DNA of 29,444 bases from a virus, in IMG/VR virus record IMGVR_UViG_3300040801_005433, positions 1 to 29,444 of that record; one strand, given 5' to 3'. Positions 10,671 to 25,913 of the stretch are shown here, in pieces. The stretch's first letter is position 1. Each line of letters opens with the position of its first letter. Below the pieces are notes generated by a model. It made no database searches. It saw only the letters and a program-made list of their open reading frames with translations, and was not told where the DNA came from. The position numbers were made by a program, and so were the translations under genes.

Positions 10671-13600
10671 ATGCCTTTAAAAAAACAAAATCTCTATCTT
10701 CCGCTTGGTGCTTTTGCCATCAATACCGATGAGAACCCGCAATCACCAAAAACAAACAGCCTGTTGACCTGCATTAATGCCGAATACCCTAGGTCAAATC
10801 TCATTTCGAAAAGAAAAGGGTATGAATCGCCAACCAACAGCATCGATGCTTGGGGTTTTAGTCCATTCGTTACATCATGGCAAAACAAAACCCATGGATT
10901 ATCCGGAAGGTTGTTTTATTATCGCGATGATGTTCAGGACATTCGGTCTTATTCGGGTGATGTAAACGCTGTCGACAGTTCAGAAGCAACAATTCCAATA
11001 ACAAGAAGAGATTTAAACTTTTACGTAGATTTAGCACAGATAGACAATGTGACCGCTGTAACCTATGTGTCATTTAATGGCACAACGTACGATACGCAAG
11101 TTGAAACGTTCTTTGAGGACACAAACGTGCCAATTGCTCAAACAACAATTGTGAGCAATGCAGCATCTCCAATACCTGCCAAGCTTGCAACCGGTCAGTC
11201 ACTGATTCAACTTTACATTAATGATTCCGGCACGTTAAAAACGATGAACATCGACTCGGGGTTCGGAACGTTTGGAACGTATGAGGCAGTTGTTGGTGCA
11301 CCTGCCGGGAATGACTTTAACATCAGCCTGGACCTTACTTCAACAGCGCAGGATCCAACAGCCTCCATAGCAATTGCCTATGTCAATGATACGTCAAGCA
11401 GTTTCAATTACGTCATAACAAAAGCAGACACACCTGCCAGCGCATCATTCACTGTCAATGTGTCCGGGTCTTCAACAACGCCCAAGATTCATAACATCGC
11501 AACATGGACATCAACAGACACATCAATCGCAACCACTAGTGGAAACCGGTTTAGCCTGGCGTGGTATGAGGAAGACACAACAACTACTAGCGCTTCGATT
11601 TACATCAAGCAATTTGACACATCCCTCAACGAAACAGTAGCCCTCAACACCATCAAAACAATTGACGGGGAGGCAACGTTTAAACCATTGGGCATAACGG
11701 GCTGTGAGTATACCAACAGAACAAACATGGTGTGGTATTCTTACGAGGACCTGTCGAACAACATCCCTAGGGTTGATTACGGTTCGTTCTTTGACGATGC
11801 TGCTGGTGGCAGTTCAGTCAATGACTACGGTCTTTACTACAATCGATGTCGCCTGGCAACTAAGGCAGCATCCTTCGGAATTCAAAACAACCTTGACTGT
11901 TTCGTTGGTGTCTATACTGAAAGTTGGGGATTACAGACAACTCCGATGACCCAGCGCAATCTAATCTGGACATCAACGTTCGATGAACAAAAGAAAATAA
12001 TAGGCAAGAATCTTTACGGCAAATTCGGACAAGAAACCGGTTCATTTGGTATGCTTCCGACAGTTCAGCCGGTAGGCAATGATGACCTAGCGCTTATGCC
12101 AAATTACGTATGTGCCGGAGCCTCCTTGACACAACTAGAGAATAGTTTCGACATCAATAACATCTATAGTTTCAATAAGATAGAGTTAAACCTGGCAAAC
12201 ACAGATGAAAGTTCAATCTATCTTAAACCAGTCTCAACAGATCGAGTTTTATTCGTTCCCGGGTCAATCCCACTGGAATCTGATAGTGGTTACGTCTACG
12301 AGCAAGGCTTCCTTCTCTATCCGGAGCCAATTGGTGTAACGGATACAAACACTGTTAGCGCCAGTATGGGAACGGGATCCTACCAATATATTGCTGTCTA
12401 CGAATACATGGACGCCTATGGAAACATCCATCAATCCGTGCCATCACAGGCTGCCAGTGTCAACGTGTCCAACAACAGCGTTTCGGTTCAGGTGCCGGCA
12501 TTATCACACACCATCAAGCAAGGGGCAGTCTGCGCAATCTATAGGACAGAGGAAGGACCCGGGCAGGTTTTTTATAGGGTTGGCTCGGTGACAAATGACC
12601 CCGATGAACAACTGCTCACATTTTTGGACACAAGATCCGATGATGACATCAACTCAAACAAAACCCTCTACACTGGAGGTGGTATTGGGGAGGTATCCAA
12701 CAGTCCCCCAACATCAACAAGGATTGTGGAGATTTTTCAGAATCGCTTGTTCTATGTCGACAGGAATAATGGAGAAACAACAATCTACTACACCAAAGAA
12801 TTCATCGATGGTGAAGGAACAGGATACAACAGCAACGAATTCAGAATTGCGACAGCAGAGGGTGAGATTGTTGGTCTTAAGACATTGGCTAACTACCTGA
12901 TTATCTTCAAGGAAGACCGAATTCTTGCCACCCAAGGACGTGGTTATGATGTGTTGGGCTCGTCCGACAGAAGCTTCGAACCACCTTCAAGACTTGGAAC
13001 AAACATCGGGTGCACCAACAGAGCTAGCCTTGCTAGCACACCGGTTGGCATTATGTTTCAAACAAAAGATTCAAACATCTATCTTCTTACTCCCAGCCTG
13101 TCATTACAACCGGTTGGAGACCCCGTGCTTTATTGGCTTGAACGTTCGACAATCCTTGACACAGCAGTTAACCCTGCGAAAACACAGGTTTATTTCCTCA
13201 CCAACAACGACTATAGTTTTATGTACGATTGGAGTCAAGGGAAGTGGTCGCTATGGACTGTCAATGGAAGAAGGTGTGACGTCAACAATGGCAATCTGGT
13301 CTGGTCAGAATCTGGCACACTCTACAGGCAGTCGACCGGTTCCTATGATGATGCCGGATCCGATCAATCGCTCACAATTGACACCGGCTGGATTGACCCA
13401 GAAACATTGGGAGGATGGGCAAGACTCTACAAGGCAAATGTCTTGGGCTATAATGAGGTGGGGGAGAACACAAGACAACTTAACTTCAAACTGGCTTATA
13501 ATTACGACAAGGCTTGGAGCAGCAACTATAGTTATGATCTGACAGAATTCAACAATCGATTGATGAGCGGCTCCAACAGAAACATGTCAGCCTCTTTTGA

Positions 13601-13847
13601 TTATACAGAACACATGGATCCGGATACGTCAATAACTGAAGATTACAACAGGGATGAGGCAACAATAATTGAACTTCACCCAGATAGGCAGAAAGCAACA
13701 TCGTTCAGAATAAGGATGGAGGATGTAGGCACCGGTGAAGCAAACGTCGCAAGTGCCGGTTATAGTCTGACCGGATTGAACCTTAACGTTGGCATCAAGC
13801 AAGCACCTTATGGTAGTCGTAACAACCGCAAGGCTAGCAAGGAATAG
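10671..13847 (+). CDS. Tail hub/nozzle (DNA-stabilisation type) protein
   Basis: This 1058-aa protein follows the adaptor, as the P22 gp10 / T7 gp12-like tail hub does. The N-terminus (NLYLPLGAFAINTDENPQS) resembles hub proteins of this class. There are repeated beta-propeller-like blade patterns, notably in the last third: IVEIFQNRLFYVDRNNGE, then LANYLIIFKEDRILATQG, NIYLLTP and VYFLTNN with a WSQGKWSLWTVNG segment. An Ig/fibronectin-III-like domain is suggested at about 560-665 (YQYIAVYEYMDAYGN, VCAIYRTEEG). It is about twice the size of P22 gp10, so extra domains are inserted. It probably closes the portal channel and carries the fibres. The propeller reading is inferred by eye. Confidence 0.75.
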   Translation: MPLKKQNLYLPLGAFAINTDENPQSPKTNSLLTCINAEYPRSNLISKRKGYESPTNSIDAWGFSPFVTSWQNKTHGLSGRLFYYRDDVQDIRSYSGDVNAVDSSEATIPITRRDLNFYVDLAQIDNVTAVTYVSFNGTTYDTQVETFFEDTNVPIAQTTIVSNAASPIPAKLATGQSLIQLYINDSGTLKTMNIDSGFGTFGTYEAVVGAPAGNDFNISLDLTSTAQDPTASIAIAYVNDTSSSFNYVITKADTPASASFTVNVSGSSTTPKIHNIATWTSTDTSIATTSGNRFSLAWYEEDTTTTSASIYIKQFDTSLNETVALNTIKTIDGEATFKPLGITGCEYTNRTNMVWYSYEDLSNNIPRVDYGSFFDDAAGGSSVNDYGLYYNRCRLATKAASFGIQNNLDCFVGVYTESWGLQTTPMTQRNLIWTSTFDEQKKIIGKNLYGKFGQETGSFGMLPTVQPVGNDDLALMPNYVCAGASLTQLENSFDINNIYSFNKIELNLANTDESSIYLKPVSTDRVLFVPGSIPLESDSGYVYEQGFLLYPEPIGVTDTNTVSASMGTGSYQYIAVYEYMDAYGNIHQSVPSQAASVNVSNNSVSVQVPALSHTIKQGAVCAIYRTEEGPGQVFYRVGSVTNDPDEQLLTFLDTRSDDDINSNKTLYTGGGIGEVSNSPPTSTRIVEIFQNRLFYVDRNNGETTIYYTKEFIDGEGTGYNSNEFRIATAEGEIVGLKTLANYLIIFKEDRILATQGRGYDVLGSSDRSFEPPSRLGTNIGCTNRASLASTPVGIMFQTKDSNIYLLTPSLSLQPVGDPVLYWLERSTILDTAVNPAKTQVYFLTNNDYSFMYDWSQGKWSLWTVNGRRCDVNNGNLVWSESGTLYRQSTGSYDDAGSDQSLTIDTGWIDPETLGGWARLYKANVLGYNEVGENTRQLNFKLAYNYDKAWSSNYSYDLTEFNNRLMSGSNRNMSASFDYTEHMDPDTSITEDYNRDEATIIELHPDRQKATSFRIRMEDVGTGEANVASAGYSLTGLNLNVGIKQAPYGSRNNRKASKE

Positions 13848-13858
13848 GGGAACAAATA

Positions 13859-16654
13859 ATGAGAATAGGTTATAAAAAATCACACCCGGGAGCTCCGGAT
13901 CCAAACAAGCCACGTGGGTACGATCAAGCGGAAATTGATCCTCAATTTTGGTACCTAGATGATAGTGGAAAAAGAGCGCATATGCGATTCGGTACCGAAG
14001 TTGGCGTATACGATAATCCTAGCACACCAGGATCCTTTAAGGATTCCAATTGGGTTCTCGATCCGCAAACCGGCGGCTATACAACAACAGAAGCTGCGCT
14101 AGCCTACAACGATATGATGAAAGCCTATGACGATGATTTTATGTTGGAAAATAACGTTACTCTAGGCGATTGGAGAGAGCAAACCCTAAACTCACCACAA
14201 AACACCTATTCGTGGCGCGATATCCAGGATATATACCGGTACGGACAAGACCTACGTCAGCCGAAGCCAATTACTTCACAACCGGCTCAACAACAGACGT
14301 CGAATGGTGCAGCTGCATCACCAGGCGACCCAGCAGTTGATTGGCGTGATATCAATCAAGACCAACGAAGTTCAAGGTACCTTGCTGCCGGTGCACCATT
14401 ATGGCAACAGGATTTAGGTTTTAATCAAAACCAGTCAATCCAACCCTTCATGGAAGGTGCTCAGAACATTTCCGAAAGAGGGGACTTTTACAATCAAGGG
14501 CAGGATCTGGCACTATCCAACAGAGCAGATTTTCAACAGGGCGCCTTGGAAGGACTCAGAGAATTCAGCGAGGGTGATAGGAGTGTTGTTGCAGCGCAGA
14601 ACCAACTTAACCGTCAAGCGCTGGCTTCACAATTGGCTGCCGGGCTAGCCGGTGGTAAGTATGACCCAAATCAACAGCGTCAATTGACCAATGCCTATGT
14701 TCGAGGAGCAACCGAAATGGGAAGGCAGGGTGAGATTGGTGCAATGCAAGAGCGCCAGCAAGCGCTTCAGAACATGCTTCAAGGTGCTGGTCAGGTAAGA
14801 GGTCAAGACATCCAAATGTTGAGCCAAGCACAGCAAGAAGCCCAACAATTACGGGGACTTGACGTAACCAAACAGCAACTAACCCAACAGTTCCTTCAAA
14901 TGGGCTTGGGTCTAGATGCGGCAAACAGAGCAGCCGAACAAGAATTGGTCAAGATGCAAGAGGCAGCCTATCAAACAGAAAAAGCAAGAGAGGTCGCGCT
15001 GGCAAACAAAACCCAATATAACGCACCTGGAACAAACTGGGGAGGCGTGATAAGCGGGATTGGGAGTCTCGCTGCTGGACTGGGAATGGTATTCTCAGAT
15101 CCCAAAACTAAGAAGAACGTTGACTACATCACAGCATCACCAGGTCCGCTCAAACAAAACATTGAAGAACAAGGTAAGGAAAAGAAAAGCAATCCTTTTC
15201 AGTTTAACGACGATGCCGGAACAACCGACTGGAACAGGGGTTATGCTCAATCCAATTGGGACATTGCTGGTGCCGGCAAGTTCTTCAACAAGGAGGTGAA
15301 ATCTCCAACACTTACACCACAGCAGAGCATCGCTGTTAGACCAACGTTTTATCAGGAAAGATTGCCAGTGCCAAAGGTAGCTGTTGAACCACCGCCTGCT
15401 CCTGTTATGCAACCACCACCTGCTCCGGAACCCGAACCAACACCTGCGCCAATGCCAATTGCTCAGCCCGAACCAACACCTGCGCCAATGCCTGCGCCAA
15501 TGCCTGTTCCGGAAGGCGGGGGAGAATGGGGCACTCGGGAAACGCTAGCTAAAAAAGCAGCCGAGAGGGAAAAGCAACGGAAGGCTCAAGAATACGAAAA
15601 CCTCCCTGCTTTTATTAAGAACATGATGAGGCTCAATCCACCGCCTCAATCAAAACCCTACACCCCTAAACCTATCCCCACCGATGGACGATGGAGGGCA
15701 GACTCTCTGGCGGTGGCACAAGCAGCAGCAGAAAAAGCAAAGAAGCAAAAGCAAGCAGATATCTACAGGAAATACGGAACGCTTGTTGGTTCAGATCCCA
15801 AGACCAAAAAGAATACAGAATACATCACAGCATCACCTGGACCACTTAAGAACCTAATGGAAGGTGGCAAGCTTGAACTGCAAGACTGGTTGAACTACAA
15901 CTCAACCTCCCTGGCACAGAAACAATCAGCACTATCCAATTTTGATACAAGTCTTAGCCCAAAGCCACTTCAAACAGGTCCATCATTTGATGTGCCAGAT
16001 TTGGATGTGACACAACCTTACAGACCCCCTTCAATTGACGAAGCTCCGGATGGCATCTCGAACAAGGACCTAGCGCTAGGGCTGGGATTAGGCGTTGGCG
16101 GAATAGGGCAGATTGTGGGTGGCTTTACAGAGAGCCCACAAGAAAGACTGCAAAGGCAACAACTACAAAATCAATCAAATCAAAACTATGCTAGCCAATA
16201 CGCAAACATTACAGGGCAGAGATTGGCAGGTCTTCAAGGACCAGGTTCATTTAGATCTGCAATTGCCTTGAGCGACCCAAAGAGCAAGAAGAACGTAAAA
16301 GAGATTGATGGGCTCTTGGGTGATTACCTCAACAAAACCAAACCGGTCCAATTCGAGTATAAGAACCAGGGCAAGTATGGAGAAGGCAGAAGAACAGGGG
16401 TAATGAGCGATGACCTTGCAAAATCTGCCCTAGGTGACGCAATGACCATCACAGACCCAGAGACGGGTTACGATATGCTCAACCAGGATCCAAGGCTGAT
16501 GAATCCATTGCTGATGGCATCTGATGCTCTACTAAACCAGCGAATCAACAACCTTGAACAACTGTTAAAAGGGTCAAACAACAGCGATCCAATTTTGGAA
16601 GATGTTGACAAAGAAAAGATGATAAAAGAATATCTGAAACAAAGCAACCGCTAG
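13859..16654 (+). CDS. Ejection-type virion protein with S74-like C-terminal domain
   Basis: 931 aa. After an N-terminal region with Trp/Tyr/Gly (about 1-150), residues 200-390 are Gln/Ala-rich helices, as in DNA-ejection proteins, followed by a Gly/Ala hydrophobic segment (GGVISGIGSLAAGLGMVF, about 395-412). SDPKxKKN motifs start at Ser413, Ser645 and Ser805. The third (NVKEIDG and, downstream, GVMSDDLAKSALGDA, ending ALLNQRINNLEQLL) resembles an intramolecular chaperone/peptidase S74 domain, usually self-cleaved at the Ser. The first two share DYITASPGPLK-like flanks and look truncated. A Pro/Glu-rich linker lies at about 510-553. The domain normally trimerises fibres, but in short-tailed phages it also ends internal virion proteins. 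Confidence 0.75.
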   Translation: MRIGYKKSHPGAPDPNKPRGYDQAEIDPQFWYLDDSGKRAHMRFGTEVGVYDNPSTPGSFKDSNWVLDPQTGGYTTTEAALAYNDMMKAYDDDFMLENNVTLGDWREQTLNSPQNTYSWRDIQDIYRYGQDLRQPKPITSQPAQQQTSNGAAASPGDPAVDWRDINQDQRSSRYLAAGAPLWQQDLGFNQNQSIQPFMEGAQNISERGDFYNQGQDLALSNRADFQQGALEGLREFSEGDRSVVAAQNQLNRQALASQLAAGLAGGKYDPNQQRQLTNAYVRGATEMGRQGEIGAMQERQQALQNMLQGAGQVRGQDIQMLSQAQQEAQQLRGLDVTKQQLTQQFLQMGLGLDAANRAAEQELVKMQEAAYQTEKAREVALANKTQYNAPGTNWGGVISGIGSLAAGLGMVFSDPKTKKNVDYITASPGPLKQNIEEQGKEKKSNPFQFNDDAGTTDWNRGYAQSNWDIAGAGKFFNKEVKSPTLTPQQSIAVRPTFYQERLPVPKVAVEPPPAPVMQPPPAPEPEPTPAPMPIAQPEPTPAPMPAPMPVPEGGGEWGTRETLAKKAAEREKQRKAQEYENLPAFIKNMMRLNPPPQSKPYTPKPIPTDGRWRADSLAVAQAAAEKAKKQKQADIYRKYGTLVGSDPKTKKNTEYITASPGPLKNLMEGGKLELQDWLNYNSTSLAQKQSALSNFDTSLSPKPLQTGPSFDVPDLDVTQPYRPPSIDEAPDGISNKDLALGLGLGVGGIGQIVGGFTESPQERLQRQQLQNQSNQNYASQYANITGQRLAGLQGPGSFRSAIALSDPKSKKNVKEIDGLLGDYLNKTKPVQFEYKNQGKYGEGRRTGVMSDDLAKSALGDAMTITDPETGYDMLNQDPRLMNPLLMASDALLNQRINNLEQLLKGSNNSDPILEDVDKEKMIKEYLKQSNR
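15431..15504 (+). repeat. Tandem repeat coding for Pro-rich linker
   Basis: CCCGAACCAACACCTGCGCC begins at 15431 and again at 15467, a 36-nt (12-codon) period, with a further CTGCGCCAATGC copy after 15490. It encodes PEPTPAPMP repeats in the ejection-type protein. The identical codons suggest recent duplication, and such linkers vary in length by slippage. Confidence 0.8.
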
Positions 16655-16665
16655 GAGATTTTAAA

Positions 16666-17196
16666 ATGCCAGATCGAAACAAGAAACGAGATGAAGAATT
16701 GCTTAAAAAACTTTTTGCGTACAAAAAAAAGAAACAAATGGCGCGACCCGGAAAGGTCGACAGTGTCATCGATGATGTTCTTGGACCGCTGAGAGATTCA
16801 AAGAGCCCACTGATGGATGACCTTCCAAGAAACGTTGCCAAGGAAGAGCTCAAGCCATTGCGTGATGCCGGCGATCGATCAGATCTGCTTTTTCCGTTGA
16901 CAAGAAAGGGTTCATTCCTAGGAGAGCCAATGGAAGAGCTGGATTCGCTGCGCAGAGCCGGCAAGGAGGATCCATTGCTCAACGAACTGAGAGGGCGCGA
17001 TCAAGCAATTGACGACCTTGAGAGTGAGGAAACAACAGACGTGCTCCGGAGCCTAATTGGTGGTGGTGGGGGACTGATGAGCGGCAGACGTTCAGCCCCA
17101 GATGATTTGGGCACAATGAGAGCGCCATCGTCAGGCAGGAGTCAAAGAAACAGGCAAGACTACCTTAGGTTCCTTAAGGCGTTGTCAGACATCTAA
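16666..17196 (+). CDS. Charged repeat protein, 176 aa
   Basis: No family is recognised. The N-terminus is very basic (RNKKRDEELLKKLF, KKKKQ). Residues 37-108 hold three imperfect copies of a PLR-D-(x)-LL unit: DVLGPLRDSKSPLMDDL (37-53), EELKPLRDAGDRSDLLFPL (60-78) and EELDSLRRAGKEDPLLNEL (90-108). A Gly-rich stretch (GGGGGLMSG, about 132-140) and a basic Ser/Arg segment precede the C-terminus. TAGGAG lies just upstream, overlapping the preceding gene's stop. Lying between ejection-type genes, it is probably a virion protein that may bind DNA or a partner through the repeats. Confidence 0.65.
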   Translation: MPDRNKKRDEELLKKLFAYKKKKQMARPGKVDSVIDDVLGPLRDSKSPLMDDLPRNVAKEELKPLRDAGDRSDLLFPLTRKGSFLGEPMEELDSLRRAGKEDPLLNELRGRDQAIDDLESEETTDVLRSLIGGGGGLMSGRRSAPDDLGTMRAPSSGRSQRNRQDYLRFLKALSDI

Positions 17197-17297: not shown

Positions 17298-18824
17298 ATG
17301 AACGACGACGAATTCTATCCATTCGAAGAAGATGAGGAAGAGCCACTAGATCCCATGGGGCAAACTGTAGATCCACGGGCTGCAGCTGCTATCGAAGCCG
17401 AGGAGCTAGCAACATCCGGTCAGTTTGCGGGGCGCCCCATAGACACTATTAACGCTGCCAGGGAAGTGTTACGCCAAAGAAGCGCTAATGCTGCCGAATT
17501 GCTTGGGTCGGTCAGCAAGGGTAGCGCGTTAATGGGTGGTGGATGGAGTCCAACATCCGGGATTAGTTTAAAGGAATACCAAGATGCTGTACGGCAAAAG
17601 GAAATTTCCGAGAAATTTATTAAAGATATCGATAACGTTATAGCAAACAAGCAAAGTTTTGAAGACGTCGCTGAAAGGGAGGAACGCAAGAAGTTCAACA
17701 CCTCAATTGAGCAAAGCGTTGATGACCCTCTATCTGGCATGTCATCGTACGAAGCAATGCCGAATATACCGGAAAGACCTTTGCCAAACATGTCATCCTA
17801 CAATAAAGCGCTGGAAGAATTGCAACAACAACAACAGACAAGAATTGAAAAGCTTGGTGGCAAAGGGAAGAAACTTAAGGAAGCATACGACAAGGGCTTC
17901 GAAGCATATAACAATGCCATAAAAACATTAAACAACTTCAAGATTGATCCCGACAGTGTTGCCAACAGCATGGGTAGAACTCAAACAATAATGATGGGCA
18001 TTGCAATGGGACTCGAACGCGCCGGCAATTTCATCTCCAAAAACCCCAATGGACCAACCATGGTTGCTGACCTTTTGGCACGTGAACAAAAGAAAGATTT
18101 GGAAAGGCAGAAGTTTCAATATCAACAACAAATCCAACAAGTTGCGCGAACAGAACAAGACCTTGATCGAGCTGCCAGGCAATGGGATGATTTAGAAAAA
18201 CAATTGGACCAATCACAAAAGGCGGCTATGAAGCTTCAATTGATGGATTTAGCAACAAAACATCCAGGAGCGCAACTTGATCTTGCCAAGACCGCAGCAC
18301 AAATTGATGCGATTAATACACAAAACGTTTTTAATCAGGCATCTATGTCCACTAAGGCAGCCGACATTGGTCCACCACCTCCGGATAAGATCTTGGAAAA
18401 GATGTCAACTAGAAAGAATGTGCTTAGCGAAGTTGGCAACCTTATTAAAGAGGCGAAAGAACTGGATAAGGAAGCAGTTGCCTACCCTGTTCAGAAATAT
18501 TGGCCAAACTCGGATGCTGCCAGATATCGCAAAAAACTTGAACTGTTCTCGGTTGAATTGAGAAAGGCAAAAGAATCCGGCGTTATGACCGAACAAGATT
18601 TCAAAAGATACAGCACACTACTAGATGCAAAAACAATAACAACCAGCGAAATCATTAAACGCCTTAGTGATCTGGAAAGGACCCAACAAAAAGCATACGA
18701 TTCAACGTTGAAGGTTTTTAGCAAAAAGTTTCCTTCACTGCCATACTACCTTCAAGACGAACAAGACAAGGAGTTGCCCAGGCAGCCTCTTAAGGTACCA
18801 AGTAAAAAAAAAACTCAAAAATAA
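17298..18824 (+). CDS. Internal virion (ejection) protein, 508-aa form
   Basis: An acidic N-terminus (DDEFYPFEEDEEEPLDP) is followed by Ala/Gly-rich and coiled-coil regions. Long Gln-rich helices lie at about 255-340 (QKFQYQQQIQQVARTEQ, AARQWDDLEKQLDQS), as in proteins ejected with phage DNA to form the trans-periplasmic channel. The gene ends at TAA 18822 shortly after ten A (18804-18813), read as Lys-Lys-Lys-Thr. A -1 shift on this run continues into the transglycosylase frame. So this is likely the short product of a two-product gene, although a homopolymer error in the assembly could also make the two frames one. Confidence 0.75.
   Translation: MNDDEFYPFEEDEEEPLDPMGQTVDPRAAAAIEAEELATSGQFAGRPIDTINAAREVLRQRSANAAELLGSVSKGSALMGGGWSPTSGISLKEYQDAVRQKEISEKFIKDIDNVIANKQSFEDVAEREERKKFNTSIEQSVDDPLSGMSSYEAMPNIPERPLPNMSSYNKALEELQQQQQTRIEKLGGKGKKLKEAYDKGFEAYNNAIKTLNNFKIDPDSVANSMGRTQTIMMGIAMGLERAGNFISKNPNGPTMVADLLAREQKKDLERQKFQYQQQIQQVARTEQDLDRAARQWDDLEKQLDQSQKAAMKLQLMDLATKHPGAQLDLAKTAAQIDAINTQNVFNQASMSTKAADIGPPPPDKILEKMSTRKNVLSEVGNLIKEAKELDKEAVAYPVQKYWPNSDAARYRKKLELFSVELRKAKESGVMTEQDFKRYSTLLDAKTITTSEIIKRLSDLERTQQKAYDSTLKVFSKKFPSLPYYLQDEQDKELPRQPLKVPSKKKTQK
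18804..18813 (+). other. Slippery A10 run (candidate -1 frameshift or slippage site)
   Basis: Ten consecutive A at the end of the 508-aa gene. A -1 ribosomal shift, or one extra A from RNA polymerase slippage, moves reading into the transglycosylase frame. The frame-0 stop codon follows 9 nt later. Confidence 0.6.
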
Positions 18825-19384
18825 GCAAGGAGCAGGTTGAACAAATCATTAATGATGAGCTTAAGCAGAATCGTTATACAAACCTTAACCCTAGATTAAT
18901 CCATGAACGAATCAAATACGAAAGTGGCTACGACTCAGCAGCAAGAGCAAAACCACAACGTTGGAAGTCTTCGGTGGATCCGTCGGGAAAGATTTATGGG
19001 AGTGAAATAGGCTTGCTACAATTATCCCCAACGTCACGTGAGAGGTTTAACCTGACAGAGGAACAAGCAATGGATCCAAAAACCAACCTCAAGTATTCAC
19101 TCAAGATTTGGGACAACTGGGCAAACAAGTTGTTTGATTCAGCTGAACAAAAACCCAACAGGACAGAGAGGGATGTTTGGTCTTGGTTGGTCACATCGGT
19201 AGGTCCAGGTGCCACCCGTAAACTGCGGGAACTTAATGGTGGTTATGGTTTGCGCAACCTTCAACGACTAATTTCCAACGAAGACATTTTAAATGCGCAC
19301 AAGAAATCCTTCGGCACTCAATCCCCGAAGCTAATTAATGCTAGAATTCGGAAAGCATTAGAAGTGGCAAGGAGAGCGAAATGA
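18806..19384 (+). CDS. Lysozyme-like (SLT) transglycosylase domain, -1 frame extension
   Basis: The open frame starts at 18806 after a stop (18803-18805) and has no ATG, GTG, TTG or CTG before GTG 18974. Its SLT features begin earlier: catalytic Glu in IKYESGYD (GAA 18920-18922), then GLLQLSPTS, DPKTNLKYSLKIWDNW and VTSVGPGATRKL, matching motifs of GH23-type lytic transglycosylases that open peptidoglycan during ejection. An SLT domain is also found in T7 gp16. A start at 18974 would lose the Glu. A -1 slip on A10 (18804-18813) gives a fusion of about 695 aa (505 + 190) with the Glu at about residue 542. AAGGAG (18827-18832) might alternatively serve a non-standard ATC/ATT start at 18845/18848. 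Confidence 0.8.
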   Translation, partial: KKNSKISKEQVEQIINDELKQNRYTNLNPRLIHERIKYESGYDSAARAKPQRWKSSVDPSGKIYGSEIGLLQLSPTSRERFNLTEEQAMDPKTNLKYSLKIWDNWANKLFDSAEQKPNRTERDVWSWLVTSVGPGATRKLRELNGGYGLRNLQRLISNEDILNAHKKSFGTQSPKLINARIRKALEVARRAK

Positions 19385-19411
19385 AAGACGCTTACAGAGC
19401 CTCGAGGAGAG
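19385..19411 (+). promoter_or_regulatory. Conserved leader box, copy L3
   Basis: AAGACGCTTACAGAGCCTCG leading into AGGAGAG lies between the transglycosylase stop and the ATG at 19420. It matches L1 and L5 (ACGCTTA-AGAG). Here it appears without the larger structured element, so the two can be used separately. Confidence 0.6.
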
Positions 19412-19419
19412 AATAAATA

Positions 19420-22080
19420 ATGCCCGAGAAGAAGAAAGTCCAGTACCAACTTCAGCCCGATGGTACTGTCAATGTCAAGAAGAATGGTGAATACTTTTCC
19501 TTGCCTGAAGAGGATGCTTTTAAGGCAATTGGTCAGGGGATTGTTGAGGCAGTAAGCGATGAAGAGGCTTACCGGTATGACTACACGAAAAGGCTAGAAG
19601 AGGAGGCATCGGAGTCTCCGATTAGATCTGCACTTGAGGGCGCTGCCAGGTCGATCACCATGGGTGCCAGTGACTGGGTGTTGGGTAATACCATCTATGA
19701 TACAAAAGAAGAAAGAGATGCTGCCCTAGCAAGAAGCGAAACGCTTGCCGGTGGTATTGGCGAGATTGGGGGAATGTTTGTACCAACCGGTGTTGCAGGA
19801 TTGGCAGGAAAGGGAATCAAGAGCATTAATGCCACCAGCAAAGCAGCCAGAGCGGCTAGGGCAGCTGCCGGGTTTGCAGCAGAGGGTACAATTGCTAGCG
19901 CTGGACAGGAGATTGCCAAGGAGGCTTATGGCGCCGAAGGAAGCCTAGGCAACGTTGCAACGGGTGCTGGATTATCGGCAGCAGTTGGTGGCACAATGGC
20001 TACCATCGGAAAACTGACCAAGTATGGTCTAGACAAGGCAACGAAAAGTGTGGTCACCAAAAAGGAGGTCTTAGCCAAAGGTACCGGTAAACGCTACGGC
20101 ACTTCGACAAAAGAGCTCCAAAAGATTCTGGACAAAGATGGAGAGGCTGCGCTAAGGAAAAGACTTGAGGACCTGGAAAAAGCAAACATAGCCCGGGGAA
20201 AGCCGGCTGTAAATGTGTATACACCAGCTGATGTCGTAGAAAAAGAAACAGCCGAATTCGCACAAGAGATGGCAAGCTCGTTTAGCCAGATGGCTAGCAA
20301 AGCAAAACTTGCCGCAAAAAACGCATTTAAAAGTCCGAAAATGTCCGCTGTTGAATTTCGTCCTGCGGGTCAGCGTGGCTTACCATACAATAAAAACGTG
20401 CATGTCGATTGGTCCCTTCAAGCCAAAGGAGAAGCTGCCAAGAGCTTTAAAGCAGCAATCGACGTTGATAAGGCTTTGCCACCATGGGCAGCGCTGGCAG
20501 GTGGTTTTTATTATGGCGGATTGCCTGGAATTGCTGCTGGCTTTGTTGCGCGAAAACTTGCCAAGGTTGGTATCGACAAGCTGGCAGGAATGACCATCAA
20601 AGAGTCAACAATTAACGCAATTGCCAAAACCTACAGCCTAGCATCCCAGGGAGCAGCATGGGCAACTGCGGTTCTAGCAGCCCCAAAAGCCATAGATTCC
20701 AACAACTTAAAGGAAACAAGAGCCTGGCTTGACCTTCAGGATAATACTGACCCCAACGTTGCAGCAATGAAGTTTGCTGACAGCATTGGCAACCTTGAAA
20801 ATGCCATTCACTATTCTTTTAGTCCAAATAAAGTAATAAATGATTTTGCCAATCCGGATAACATCAACAAAAAAAACCTGGATGTTTTAAGTGTCGTCCA
20901 ACCCGAAATCTATCAGGACCTTAAGGAATACGCAAACTCAATCAACGTTGAGGGCATAACCGGAAAGAAGCTTGACAAACTCAACCTGATCAGGTCGCAC
21001 GTCATAACATCCGATTACACCCCAGCGCTAACAAACCCAAAATCAGCATCAGACATTGCCAAGATAATGAACATCACAAAAGCAATGGACACGATGTTTA
21101 CGCCAAGCGTGATGGAGAACATAGAGATTCTTAAGGCAAGAAACAAGATTAAAAAAACGCTTGAACAACTTCCACCAAACGTTAAAGACCAATTGATGGG
21201 AATGAGCCAAACGTATGCTGCCGGTGAAGAGCCGGATGTCTATCAGGTTCAGAGTTTGGACGAGGCAGCATTCACTTCTTCCGGAATTAAGAATGCCTCC
21301 TCAATGGCAAAGCAAATGTCCCAACTTCGCATTGGACCTTCACAGAAGAAACTAACCGGTTTAGGATTCCTCAATGCTTTTTCTTCCGGAGCAGAACCTT
21401 CACAGCAAGGAAAGATTGCGGAAGGCTTAGCCAAGCAAATCATCAGTAACAAGGACAGCAGGTTAAAATCACTTGACGTAAAGCCTCTTTTAAAATCACA
21501 AAAGATTAAACTACCCAATGATTTCAAGGAGATAGTGAACGGCATTGATCCTGATGTTATTGCTGGCTATGCGCAAGGCGCAGCAACCATCGCAGATCCA
21601 AATGAGGTGGAGAATCCTTCCGAACTTGGCAACAAGGCAGCAGATCAATTGGGGCTGTTGAAAGAATACTCTGTGAAGGTCAGGGATAAGAAAAGGTTCA
21701 ACGAAATTGCGCAGTCAATCTTGGATCCAAGAACAATCCTGTCACGTTTGGATAACAACAGTTCAACCATGGATGACGTTGTGATTTTCAACCAGCTATT
21801 TCCGATTGCCGCGCGGCAGATAACCTTTTCGGTGAATGAACTTTTGGATGAACATTTCAGCAACATCGCAAACGGCAAAAAGTCCCTATTTACTAGGAAA
21901 GTCAAAAACAACCTAGCAATTTGGTCACCACTAGGAAATAGACCCCAACAACAGTCACCCATGGGAGCACCACCAGCGCAACAGCAACCGACAGCAGACG
22001 TCGACAAAACCGTGGCAAGGTCAGAAATGCCAAACATGAACGAAACGCCAATTGAAAGGGCTTCGAAAAACATTTCTTAG
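19420..22080 (+). CDS. Large internal virion/ejection protein, 886 aa
   Basis: Two hydrophobic, Gly/Ala-rich zones stand out: about 105-205 (AGGIGEIGGMFVPTGVAGLAG, AARAARAAAGFAAEG and AAVGGTMATIG) and about 350-425 (PPWAALAGGFYYGGLPGIAA and AAWATAVLAAP). These could insert into membranes, as expected of proteins that leave the virion to form the DNA-ejection channel. The remainder is helical and charged; the last 60 residues are Gln/Pro-rich and probably disordered. Position and size parallel T7 gp15/gp16-type genes, but no sequence family is claimed. The ribosome binding site is in leader box L3. Confidence 0.7.
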   Translation: MPEKKKVQYQLQPDGTVNVKKNGEYFSLPEEDAFKAIGQGIVEAVSDEEAYRYDYTKRLEEEASESPIRSALEGAARSITMGASDWVLGNTIYDTKEERDAALARSETLAGGIGEIGGMFVPTGVAGLAGKGIKSINATSKAARAARAAAGFAAEGTIASAGQEIAKEAYGAEGSLGNVATGAGLSAAVGGTMATIGKLTKYGLDKATKSVVTKKEVLAKGTGKRYGTSTKELQKILDKDGEAALRKRLEDLEKANIARGKPAVNVYTPADVVEKETAEFAQEMASSFSQMASKAKLAAKNAFKSPKMSAVEFRPAGQRGLPYNKNVHVDWSLQAKGEAAKSFKAAIDVDKALPPWAALAGGFYYGGLPGIAAGFVARKLAKVGIDKLAGMTIKESTINAIAKTYSLASQGAAWATAVLAAPKAIDSNNLKETRAWLDLQDNTDPNVAAMKFADSIGNLENAIHYSFSPNKVINDFANPDNINKKNLDVLSVVQPEIYQDLKEYANSINVEGITGKKLDKLNLIRSHVITSDYTPALTNPKSASDIAKIMNITKAMDTMFTPSVMENIEILKARNKIKKTLEQLPPNVKDQLMGMSQTYAAGEEPDVYQVQSLDEAAFTSSGIKNASSMAKQMSQLRIGPSQKKLTGLGFLNAFSSGAEPSQQGKIAEGLAKQIISNKDSRLKSLDVKPLLKSQKIKLPNDFKEIVNGIDPDVIAGYAQGAATIADPNEVENPSELGNKAADQLGLLKEYSVKVRDKKRFNEIAQSILDPRTILSRLDNNSSTMDDVVIFNQLFPIAARQITFSVNELLDEHFSNIANGKKSLFTRKVKNNLAIWSPLGNRPQQQSPMGAPPAQQQPTADVDKTVARSEMPNMNETPIERASKNIS

Positions 22081-22484: not shown

Positions 22485-25400
22485 ATGGCTGCCGAACCTA
22501 TAAGAAAATCCAGACTTAACGGGAGTAGTGCCCGGCTTGGTCGACCAAGACTGAGATGGAAGTTTGATGATGCCGGCATTAGTCCGCCCATCTTCCAAGT
22601 GCTCGACCTTCAAGGGGCTAATGTTCCTTCAATTGACAACCTTGAACAAACCATAACCCTAAACAGCACCTCGATTTCCCCAGACTTTCTCTATACTGCC
22701 GACAATGCCACAATTTCTTCGTGGACAGCAACAGTCGGAACAAATTTAAGCATAATTGGCTCCGGTACGTACCCCGGAATAGATGCTGGGTCACCATTGT
22801 TTGGATCCGGTGATACTAGTATTCAATTTCAAGGAACTCCAGGAAACACTACAGGAACACGTAATGGCAAGGTCTATGCTGCCCCCAACACTTCATCCGG
22901 GGACATAACAACCGAAGACTACATCTTGGAAGGTGTCTTTGAATACCAAGCACCAGATCCCGGAGCAACGTCCAGCCCGCTAGCTAAGTGGCGGTTCACG
23001 GGGGGTTCTTTTGTTGGTTGGCAGATAGACACATTCAACAGCGGCGGTGGTCTTTTCTTGCGCGCCTATCACAACTGGAACACCGCCGATTATGCCCTTG
23101 TTCAAACTTCCGATGGCATTGCTAATGGCAATTGGTATCACGTCTTGGTCGCTGCGAACCGTGACGGTTTAGGCTATCTGTATGTCAATGGTGTGTTGGC
23201 TGCTAGTGCCAGTTATGTGAGCAGTGATGGTCTAAGCGCTACATCAAACGTTGCCCTTACCATAGGATCTATTTCCGATGGGCAAGCAAACACTCAACAT
23301 TCAGAGTATGGTGGCAAGGTTGCTTATGCTGCCATGTGGAAACAAAGCGATTGGCTAAGCGCATCACCACAGGCAGAGTTGGATTTGGTTGTTAGTGAGA
23401 GGTTCGCTAAGATGAGCGGCATCTACCCGCAATTGTCAACAGGAGCAGAACTACCCATAACATCAACCAGATCAACAGCGGAAACCATCAACGCTTGGGA
23501 TACATTCGGAGAGGACGAGGATACGTATACTGTAGGTCCGAACTGGATGGAAATCTGGAGAACAAGAGATGGAAAGACAGATAGGGACCTTGACGTTGTT
23601 AAATCCAACTCGTTTCCGAATAGTGAAGATTTTGATGGTGCTGAATGGAATACATTTCAATTAACGATAGACAGTAACCCAACGGTAATTTCAGCATCTG
23701 CTGATAACCTACAATTCCAAAGTTTAGATTTTGATATCGGTAGCCCGACACTGACAGCCTCTTTTGCCATTGGAGAAGCGACACCGACAACAGCGTCAGC
23801 GCTCACAAATGCAACCTATGAACGTGAAGTGGCTGGGGCAGTTACTGTCAATTCCACCGCGCCCTCTAACGGCTACATCCGCGCTGAAACAAAAAGAGAT
23901 GGCTCAGACGTTTTATTTACCGGATTGCTCATAGAAGAAGAAAGAACCAACCTAATAAACTACAGCAATGAAATGAACAACTGGGTGAAAGTGTCAGCCG
24001 GTATTTCTTCGAACGTTGCAACCTCGCCCGGTCTTGCTGTCGATGCCGATGGCATTGTGGCAAATTCGTCGGAGAGCACCCACTACATCAGAAACGACAT
24101 TACCGTCCAATCCAACGTCACCAACACCACCAGTGGTTATTTCAAAAAAGGCTCGCTTGATTGGATCTACTTAGCAGCTAGAGGTGGAACACGAGGACTC
24201 TACTTTAACATTGCTAACGGTACTGTTGGTTTTATTGAAAATGCTATAGACTATGGTATAGAGGACGTCGGCAATGGGTGGTATTATTGCTGGTTCTCTT
24301 GGCAAGACAATAACACTTCATCGAACGTTCGAGTCTATCCATCAGAGGGAGATCAAGATCAGATCTTTTCTGGTGATGATTCAACAGTTCAAACATACGT
24401 CTGGGGGATGCAGACCGAGATTTCATCAACTCCTTCTTCGCTAATACCAACGTTTGGAACAACAGCAACACGCAGCAAGGATAGGTTAACCTATGCCGGT
24501 GGGGACAAAAACATCAACAATGCAGATAGGACCGGTGCTGTTATGTGCGACGTGTTAATTAAAAACAAAGGCTCTAACCCGTCATATCTATTTACCCTGC
24601 TTAATAATACAACATCAACCGATTTCATCAGTGTTTATGCCGATGCCACAACTGGTGTTCCTATCGTTGAAACATCAGCAGCTGCCGGGAATCCCGGCGT
24701 TGTCACCGGCTCAACTGACATCTGTGACGGCACAATACATTCAATCACATTGGTATACCAAAACAACTCCCTATTGCTTTATGTTGATGGGGCTCAGGAG
24801 GGTACCGAAGACACATCCGTTACAATACCGGACAATCTAAATGAAATTTCCCTGGGTTCTGATAAGGATGGAAACAACCAACTCAATGGAGATGTTTCTG
24901 ATTTTAAAATCTATCGTACCGGAGTAGTGGATGTAGTTTACCGGAATATTCAAGCGGATGCTCTTGTTGGCAGCGCTGTTAACAACCGGCATGGAATCTT
25001 TACTGACCTAACTCCCTCAGACGACTGGCAGCACTTATTTGTTGCTTACGTTAAGCCAGGCAATCGTTCCGCGGTTAGGATTCAATCACAGAACCAGGCT
25101 GCAGCCAATGTTTGGGCTCAATTCAAACTCGATGGAACAGAAACACAAGCATCCCTAACCAGTGGAAATCTTACAGGAATCGCTACTGTCGAAGCGGTTG
25201 AGGATGGGTTTTACAAATGCACAGTTCCCTACAATGGTGGAACAGCAAACCACAGACACACCATTCAGGCAATTGATGATGCGGAAGTCGATGACGTGAC
25301 CTATCTTGGTGATGGTTCAACACCCGACATTTACATTGCCATCATGCAGCACGACTATTCGGAATCCTCGACAGGAAGGACAGTATCCGACACATACGTT

Positions 25401-25913
25401 CGGACCGAGGGAGGTGGCAGGACAGTAGGTGAAATAGCAAGAGGCTATTATTCATCCAGCCCATCAACGCTAGATTACAACGGAACCCTTAATGTTCCTG
25501 CAGGTGGAAGAGGCGCTGTTGCGTGTGATGTCCTAATTGAACCATCCTCAACCGGTTCAAGCGACCTTTATGTTTGGGCAATACACGATGACAAAACAGC
25601 CAGCGACCACATTATGCTTAGGGCAGATGCTACAACAGGTCTACCTATTCTTGACATAAACGCAACAGCCGGCACACCAGGAGCAATCACCGGCTCAACA
25701 AACATCTGCGATGGCATAAATCATAGCCTGACGGTGAACTATGTCAAGAATAATGTCCAAATGAAGGTCGATGGGGTGGTTGAGGGAACCATAACCAGCG
25801 TTACGATCCCCGATCACCTCAACCACATTACGCTCGGAACGGACAAATCGGGCAACAATCACCTTGAGGGTCTTCTCTGGAATTTCAAGGTGTATAACAA
25901 AAACAACCTATAA
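22485..25913 (+). CDS. Tail fibre with LamG and carbohydrate-binding modules
   Basis: A receptor-binding type protein of 1142 aa. A LamG/concanavalin-like domain lies at about 130-300 (WQIDTFNSGGGLFLRAYHNW, GNWYHVLVAANRDGLGYLYV). About 485-670 (EERTNLINYSNEMNNW ending TYVWGMQTEISSTPSSLIPT) is a carbohydrate-binding-like module widespread in phage fibres. A second LamG-like unit at about 683-815 (AVMCDVLI, ICDGTIHSITLVYQNNSLLL) is duplicated at about 1005-1138 (AVACDVLI, ICDGINHSLTVNYVKNNV), with a second binding-like module at about 825-975. The N-terminus (RKSRLNGSSARLGRPRLRW) probably attaches to the tail. The start is weakly supported: only AGG is upstream of ATG 22485. Confidence 0.8.
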   Translation: MAAEPIRKSRLNGSSARLGRPRLRWKFDDAGISPPIFQVLDLQGANVPSIDNLEQTITLNSTSISPDFLYTADNATISSWTATVGTNLSIIGSGTYPGIDAGSPLFGSGDTSIQFQGTPGNTTGTRNGKVYAAPNTSSGDITTEDYILEGVFEYQAPDPGATSSPLAKWRFTGGSFVGWQIDTFNSGGGLFLRAYHNWNTADYALVQTSDGIANGNWYHVLVAANRDGLGYLYVNGVLAASASYVSSDGLSATSNVALTIGSISDGQANTQHSEYGGKVAYAAMWKQSDWLSASPQAELDLVVSERFAKMSGIYPQLSTGAELPITSTRSTAETINAWDTFGEDEDTYTVGPNWMEIWRTRDGKTDRDLDVVKSNSFPNSEDFDGAEWNTFQLTIDSNPTVISASADNLQFQSLDFDIGSPTLTASFAIGEATPTTASALTNATYEREVAGAVTVNSTAPSNGYIRAETKRDGSDVLFTGLLIEEERTNLINYSNEMNNWVKVSAGISSNVATSPGLAVDADGIVANSSESTHYIRNDITVQSNVTNTTSGYFKKGSLDWIYLAARGGTRGLYFNIANGTVGFIENAIDYGIEDVGNGWYYCWFSWQDNNTSSNVRVYPSEGDQDQIFSGDDSTVQTYVWGMQTEISSTPSSLIPTFGTTATRSKDRLTYAGGDKNINNADRTGAVMCDVLIKNKGSNPSYLFTLLNNTTSTDFISVYADATTGVPIVETSAAAGNPGVVTGSTDICDGTIHSITLVYQNNSLLLYVDGAQEGTEDTSVTIPDNLNEISLGSDKDGNNQLNGDVSDFKIYRTGVVDVVYRNIQADALVGSAVNNRHGIFTDLTPSDDWQHLFVAYVKPGNRSAVRIQSQNQAAANVWAQFKLDGTETQASLTSGNLTGIATVEAVEDGFYKCTVPYNGGTANHRHTIQAIDDAEVDDVTYLGDGSTPDIYIAIMQHDYSESSTGRTVSDTYVRTEGGGRTVGEIARGYYSSSPSTLDYNGTLNVPAGGRGAVACDVLIEPSSTGSSDLYVWAIHDDKTASDHIMLRADATTGLPILDINATAGTPGAITGSTNICDGINHSLTVNYVKNNVQMKVDGVVEGTITSVTIPDHLNHITLGTDKSGNNHLEGLLWNFKVYNKNNL

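Follow-up and report, generated by a model that had tools for sequence, protein, structure and literature searches.

A ten-adenine run at the end of a phage ejection-protein gene may join a lytic transglycosylase domain to a minority of its products by polymerase slippage

An uncultured, short-tailed phage known from an IMG/VR virus record of 29,444 bases (the whole of which was analysed and is referred to here as the window) carries a run of ten A residues, A10, at the point where the gene of a putative ejection protein of 508 aa (p508) overlaps a second coding frame, in the −1 register, that specifies a predicted lytic transglycosylase domain. We propose that slippage on a true A10 may give rise to the normal p508 and, in smaller amounts, to a protein of about 695 aa that joins p508 to this SLT domain, and we assign to this reading a probability of roughly 0.45. 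That some joined protein exists, either through slippage or through an artefact or a length variant of the run, seems probable. The broader idea, that the dose of enzyme in the injection machine is set by polymerase slippage, which would endow a fixed minority of the proteins with a C-terminal lytic transglycosylase, is put forward tentatively, at somewhat under even odds.

The putative ejection cassette is read in the order p176 (16666-17196), p508 (17298-18824) and p886 (19420-22080), all on the plus strand, as are the other features described below. Family searches gave no match for p176 or for p886, and database searches gave no clear family match for p508. By position only, p176, the small protein before p508, occupies a gp14/gp7-like slot, its gene order having been compared with that of the relatives and with the cassette order given in a review (PMC8954989). 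Likewise, by gene order only, p508 would correspond to the gp15/gp20 slot and p886, the next ejection protein (EjB), to the gp16 slot of podovirus ejection cassettes; the order of p886 is kept in the relatives, and its gene has its own Shine-Dalgarno (SD) sequence (GAGGAG) and ATG. The comparison of p508 with the mid-cassette ejection protein EjA of six relatives by hhalign yielded an E-value of 3.8e-5 over 64 columns, and the core that they share, with the pattern IDP...GIA..L...N..M...D..QK, is conserved in residues 208-274 of p508 (17919-18119). This similarity identifies p508 as a homologue of EjA, which is found in about 70 distantly related phages, and, together with the order of the cassette, it agrees with the ejection-protein setting that the first-pass annotation had proposed. 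Several EjA proteins of the relatives are 512-569 aa long and end where p508 ends, so p508, with its 508 aa, is full length at its own TAA (18822-18824), and the idea of a truncated p508 gene was rejected. The link between the EjA of the relatives and T7 gp15 or P22 gp20 is one of gene order only. In the same region, p931 (13859-16654) is an S74-type chaperone protein that contains a motif like SDPKTKKN three times; it is longer than most S74-slot proteins of the relatives and looks internally duplicated. Further downstream, 22485-25913 encodes a tail-fibre-like protein of 1142 aa with three laminin-G/concanavalin-type stretches.

Exact-peptide scans of IMG/VR with p508, the SLT domain, TerL, MCP and the stabilisation protein detected no close relatives, and neither did tblastn and megablast searches against named phages; a TerL profile scan was swamped by unrelated terminases, and a scan of genomes with the stabilisation protein returned nothing. 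A degenerate DNA pattern derived from the stabilisation-type protein (10671-13847) retrieved 43 syntenic records, a small alignment retrieved 31 loci, mostly further records, and an MCP alignment retrieved five MAG contigs. About 70 records show the same order of TerL, portal, coat, adaptor, stabilisation protein, S74-type protein, EjA and EjB, at 22-38% identity. In the 36 relatives with both genes, EjA and EjB are spaced by −83 to +20 nt and no SLT intervenes, and about 30 proteins from the ejection slots of the relatives gave no SLT match when scanned with Pfam; in the window, the gap between the two genes measures 595 nt (18825-19419) and contains the SLT domain. Given that EjA abuts EjB in the relatives without an SLT, the domain is a lineage-specific insertion directly behind EjA and not a torn-off end of p508. 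An SLT between EjA and EjB was found in no relative, so these genomes offer no comparison of the A-run and the frame offset. The SLT copies seen in six of the first relatives, and one further match below the cut-off, are located close to the terminase or far away from the cassette and look endolysin- or lysozyme-like, which corresponds to a different arrangement; a 26-aa SLT-like match in L233 was spurious, and a gene of HTVC033P of similar size and in a similar slot was unrelated.

Some features of the relatives are recorded here in their own right. Microcystis phage Mae-JY35 (L006), an isolated freshwater cyanophage, has the same cassette order at 11021-15724 (S74, 121 aa, 459 aa, 655 aa); its portal is weakly related, and the phage would be useful as a cultured model of the group. 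The S74-slot gene carries an A10 in L248 (12142-12151) and an A9 in L245 (5349-5357) at the same codons (KARQKK[NS]YA[DE]GGVVEP), and in L248 it has an additional A11 at 12818-12828. These frames are open despite the runs, which may represent a slippage site or only lysines coded by AAA. In L166, an A8 at 17459, close to the end of the coat gene, marks the point where two short frames, of 101 and 139 codons, meet.

At its 3′ end, the p508 gene reads AGT AAA AAA AAA ACT CAA AAA TAA, for a protein that terminates in VPSKKKTQK. A TAA at 18803-18805, to which the T ahead of the A-run contributes, precedes the −1 frame, which is open from 18806 to a stop at 19382-19384. The two frames thus overlap by about 18 nt (18806-18824), a stretch that contains A10 and has coding sequence on both sides. 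The first-pass annotation had placed the run at 18804-18813, near the SKKKTQK end of p508, and the −1 frame at 18806-19384; we rechecked the sequence and the open reading frames and found these coordinates right, and our own count of the fusion that would result from one inserted A or from a −1 shift is also the 695 aa that had been estimated. No other homopolymer in the window is as long as A10, the next being three runs of A8 that break no frame, and A10 is the only run of 8 or more that links two long frames there. Since only about 0.35 runs of ten or more A are expected by chance in 29 kb, the position of A10 inside the 18-nt overlap is no accident of composition: the chance of its falling there is about 1e-4 and rises to a few in 1000 once the Lys-rich tail of p508 is allowed for. 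The run has the properties of a poly-A slippage site, namely at least nine A residues in the sense strand and an added A that joins two coding frames.

The codon listing also bore out that the −1 frame has no ATG, GTG, TTG or CTG before the GTG at 18974, as had been claimed; ATA at 18821, ATC at 18845, ATT at 18848 and ATC at 18899 and 18911 are present. This GTG, the first NTG codon, is located 3′ of the catalytic-type Glu codon at 18920 and was rejected as the true start for this reason. The ATA at 18821 was discarded because it has no ribosome site, and TTG 18837 and ATG 18852 and 18855 belong to the p508 frame.

That the −1 frame is a gene, coding from about 18827 onward, has good support. 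The segment 18827-18973, which lies 5′ of any NTG start, obtained a codon-usage score of +11.0, versus −9.2 and −65.4 for the other frames, and none of the off-frame windows of the phage's own genes scored as high; the frame has 192 open codons, whose usage is normal along almost all of it. The product (P0001, 192 aa) matched the Pfam SLT family (PF01464) from residue 25 with an E-value of 0.003 and 17.5 bits, a score below the gathering cut-off of 21.3. An AlphaFold model obtained with five distant SLT sequences reached a moderate pLDDT of 67, with one helix over residues 8-22, and the top 43 Foldseek matches to this model were all lytic transglycosylases, with E. coli MltE in first place and a best E-value of 2e-3. 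To guard against bias from the five added sequences, a single-sequence fold was also made; its confidence was 57.6 and its first 13 Foldseek matches were all MltE, with E-values of only 0.06-0.22. A PDB profile search with an SLT alignment owed its matches mainly to the other SLT sequences in it, and it was left out of the evidence.

E39 (18920-18922), within KYESGYD, aligns with the catalytic Glu of five SLT proteins and shows the E-S/T motif; the G-x-x-Q-[LIV] motif is present as GLLQL (19010-19024), with G69 and Q72 invariant in the alignment, and the late Y-N-x-G motif aligns as LNGG, in which the N and G are kept and the Tyr is absent. Motifs, codon usage and fold matches agree, with the Pfam score below its cut-off, on the SLT-type domain that the first-pass annotation had read in this frame, and they indicate a predicted MltE-like lytic transglycosylase of the SLT type (PF01464/GH23).

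How the two frames might be connected can be outlined as follows, and here we infer from the sequence the slippage itself, the ratio of the products, their presence in the virion and the role in cutting murein. Most copies would be the plain 508-aa EjA. The likeliest slip would be the addition of an A to the transcript by the RNA polymerase, producing an A11 mRNA, to which a ribosomal −1 shift on A_AAA_AAA may contribute. In the minor form of about 695 aa, the MltE-like domain would be joined to the C-terminus of EjA through a Pro/Lys-rich linker, and the few copies that carry it, packaged into the virion alongside plain EjA, would cut through the murein as the ejection tube forms. As p508 is a complete EjA, the production of two proteins would keep the normal one intact. 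If this is true, the virion holds a substoichiometric enzyme that does not require a separate gene, and the case is a warning for annotators, who would call such a locus a truncated gene followed by an orphan lysozyme or would discard an ORF that has no start.

In favour of slippage, a shift can join the frames nowhere but in the 18 nt that contain A10, coding begins just past the p508 stop and before any NTG, and the modelled helix 8-22 extends upstream of the ATC codon at 18845. Against it stand the absence of any relative with an SLT at this place and the lack of a downstream stem-loop: for structures without pseudoknots, the minimum free energy of the RNA 3′ of A10 was no better than that of shuffled sequences (z −0.8 to +0.9). 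No RNA polymerase gene was recognised in the window. The first-pass annotation had admitted either a ribosomal −1 shift or polymerase slippage; with no stimulatory RNA structure present, slippage by the RNA polymerase is the likelier of the two and fits better, and the ribosomal alternative is the part that loses ground.

A programmed −1 ribosomal frameshift of the dnaX kind would use A_AAA_AAA at 18806-18812, a heptamer of the X_XXY_YYZ type that lies in the right frame (frame 0), with a TAAGG (18791-18795) that ends 10 nt upstream of it as a possible SD-like stimulator. In E. coli dnaX, the ribosomal shift takes place with an SD sequence and a stem-loop. At the locus studied here the downstream structure is missing, and in coding DNA rich in purines an SD-like match of 5 nt says little. 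Ribosomes of E. coli are known to slide along runs of A, but in a cell-free E. coli system they needed at least 11 A to do so (PMC4363877). We consider this mechanism quite unlikely, and the probability accorded to it overlaps that of the main reading. The same two products would be formed, and only the slipping machine differs.

The two-gene appearance could also be a homopolymer indel, so that most genomes would have 11 (or 8) A and a single gene for a 695-aa EjA-SLT protein. The break in frame sits exactly on the sole long homopolymer, where indels of sequencing, PCR and replication fall, and a joined EjA-SLT protein reads naturally. However, no other gene of the window is interrupted, even where it contains a run of A7 or A8, and the A9, A10 and A11 runs of L245 and L248 stay in frame; from these runs, although they are few, it seems that assemblies of this kind handle A-runs. 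Moreover, about 1.76 Mb of the relatives' sequence contains no run of 8 or more that parts two long frames, apart from one short A8 case, and p508 does not look torn, the EjA of the relatives sharing its end point. If the run were in truth A11, slippage on it would give both products anyway. For these reasons, we regard an artefact or length variant as somewhat unlikely, although it and the stand-alone gene described next are strong rivals of slippage. A stand-alone SLT gene that starts at ATC 18845-18847 (or ATT 18848), with ribosomes binding at AAGGAG (18827-18832) and perhaps re-initiating past the p508 stop at 18822, appears unlikely; A10 would then be merely the Lys-rich tail of p508. This start had been mentioned by the first-pass annotation, and the case for it is stronger than was implied there. 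The 12 nt between AAGGAG and the ATC are close to the SD spacers of the phage itself, which mostly measure 9-11 nt from GGAG to ATG, an AGGAG would fall by chance on any of the four suitable positions in about 0.5% of cases (background of 0.0012 per nt in coding DNA), and the Pfam match, from residue 25, falls wholly inside the product started at ATC. Nevertheless, no ATG, GTG or TTG with a ribosome site is available to such a gene, only the ATC or ATT after AAGGAG; starts of this type are rare, and each of the 15 genes listed for the structural region of the window begins with ATG. In addition, the ATC corresponds to residue 14, and its product would be predicted to lose half of the first helix (8-22). 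Each of the readings in which the domain is expressed leaves one coincidence unexplained: for the stand-alone gene it is A10, and for slippage it is AAGGAG at a near phage-typical spacing before an ATC, a coincidence of about 0.5-3%. Finally, the SLT could be a decaying remnant, an enzyme gene acquired between the two ejection genes that has since been deprived of its start codon and is silent, in line with the lack of a standard start, the marginal Pfam score and its absence from the relatives. The 192 open codons with normal usage over nearly their full length, and the retention of the catalytic Glu and of GLLQL, make this very improbable.

The elements of the slippage reading are already known singly, namely virion-protein domains added by frameshift, poly-A slippage and ejection proteins that cut murein; a limited literature search turned up no case in which slippage adds a lytic domain to a fraction of the ejection proteins. 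Transcriptional slippage is known at runs of nine or more A. The T7 RNA polymerase inserts residues at A runs very readily, and the host enzyme needs runs of 8 or more (PMC6260861). The closest likeness is with tssM1 of Citrobacter rodentium, in which an A11 of tssM leads to both length forms, the long one amounting to 20-25%, and both are needed (PMC4256274). There, as here, the poly-A lies just before the stop of the shorter form, and, as is proposed for p508, an added A gives the extended one, so that both come from one gene; tssM1, however, is a bacterial T6SS gene with A11 whose behaviour was shown by RNA and protein work, in contrast to a phage ejection protein with A10 that is known from sequence. 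A dnaX gene with an A9 yields two products through transcriptional slippage, and many bacterial genomes avoid runs of 9 throughout (PMC1088944). In dnaX, however, slippage shortens the protein. The rcsD gene of Yersinia pestis, with a natural AUU start and its ribosome site below a frameshift (PMC10191623), resembles our locus in that the domain behind the frame break could be translated alone from a rare start; it differs in being a host gene with a real frameshift mutation.

Among phages, the coat proteins of T7 (10A/10B), T3 and A2 (reviewed in PMC5009743) carry a −1 frame domain on a fraction of the virion proteins. In those cases a ribosomal shift acts on capsid genes and adds an Ig-like or other domain, whereas here an enzyme would be added to an ejection protein at an A10 that lacks structure. 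Lytic domains move among ejection proteins, being part of gp16 in T7 and of the gp15-like gp35 in K1E (PMC8954989), and these resemble our case in having a lytic domain, of the SLT type in T7, within a podovirus ejection cassette. They are, in contrast, in-frame fusions present in every copy, and the SLT of T7 forms the N-terminus of gp16; in the phage described here, the domain lies in another frame and follows p508, a gp15/gp20-like protein by its position.
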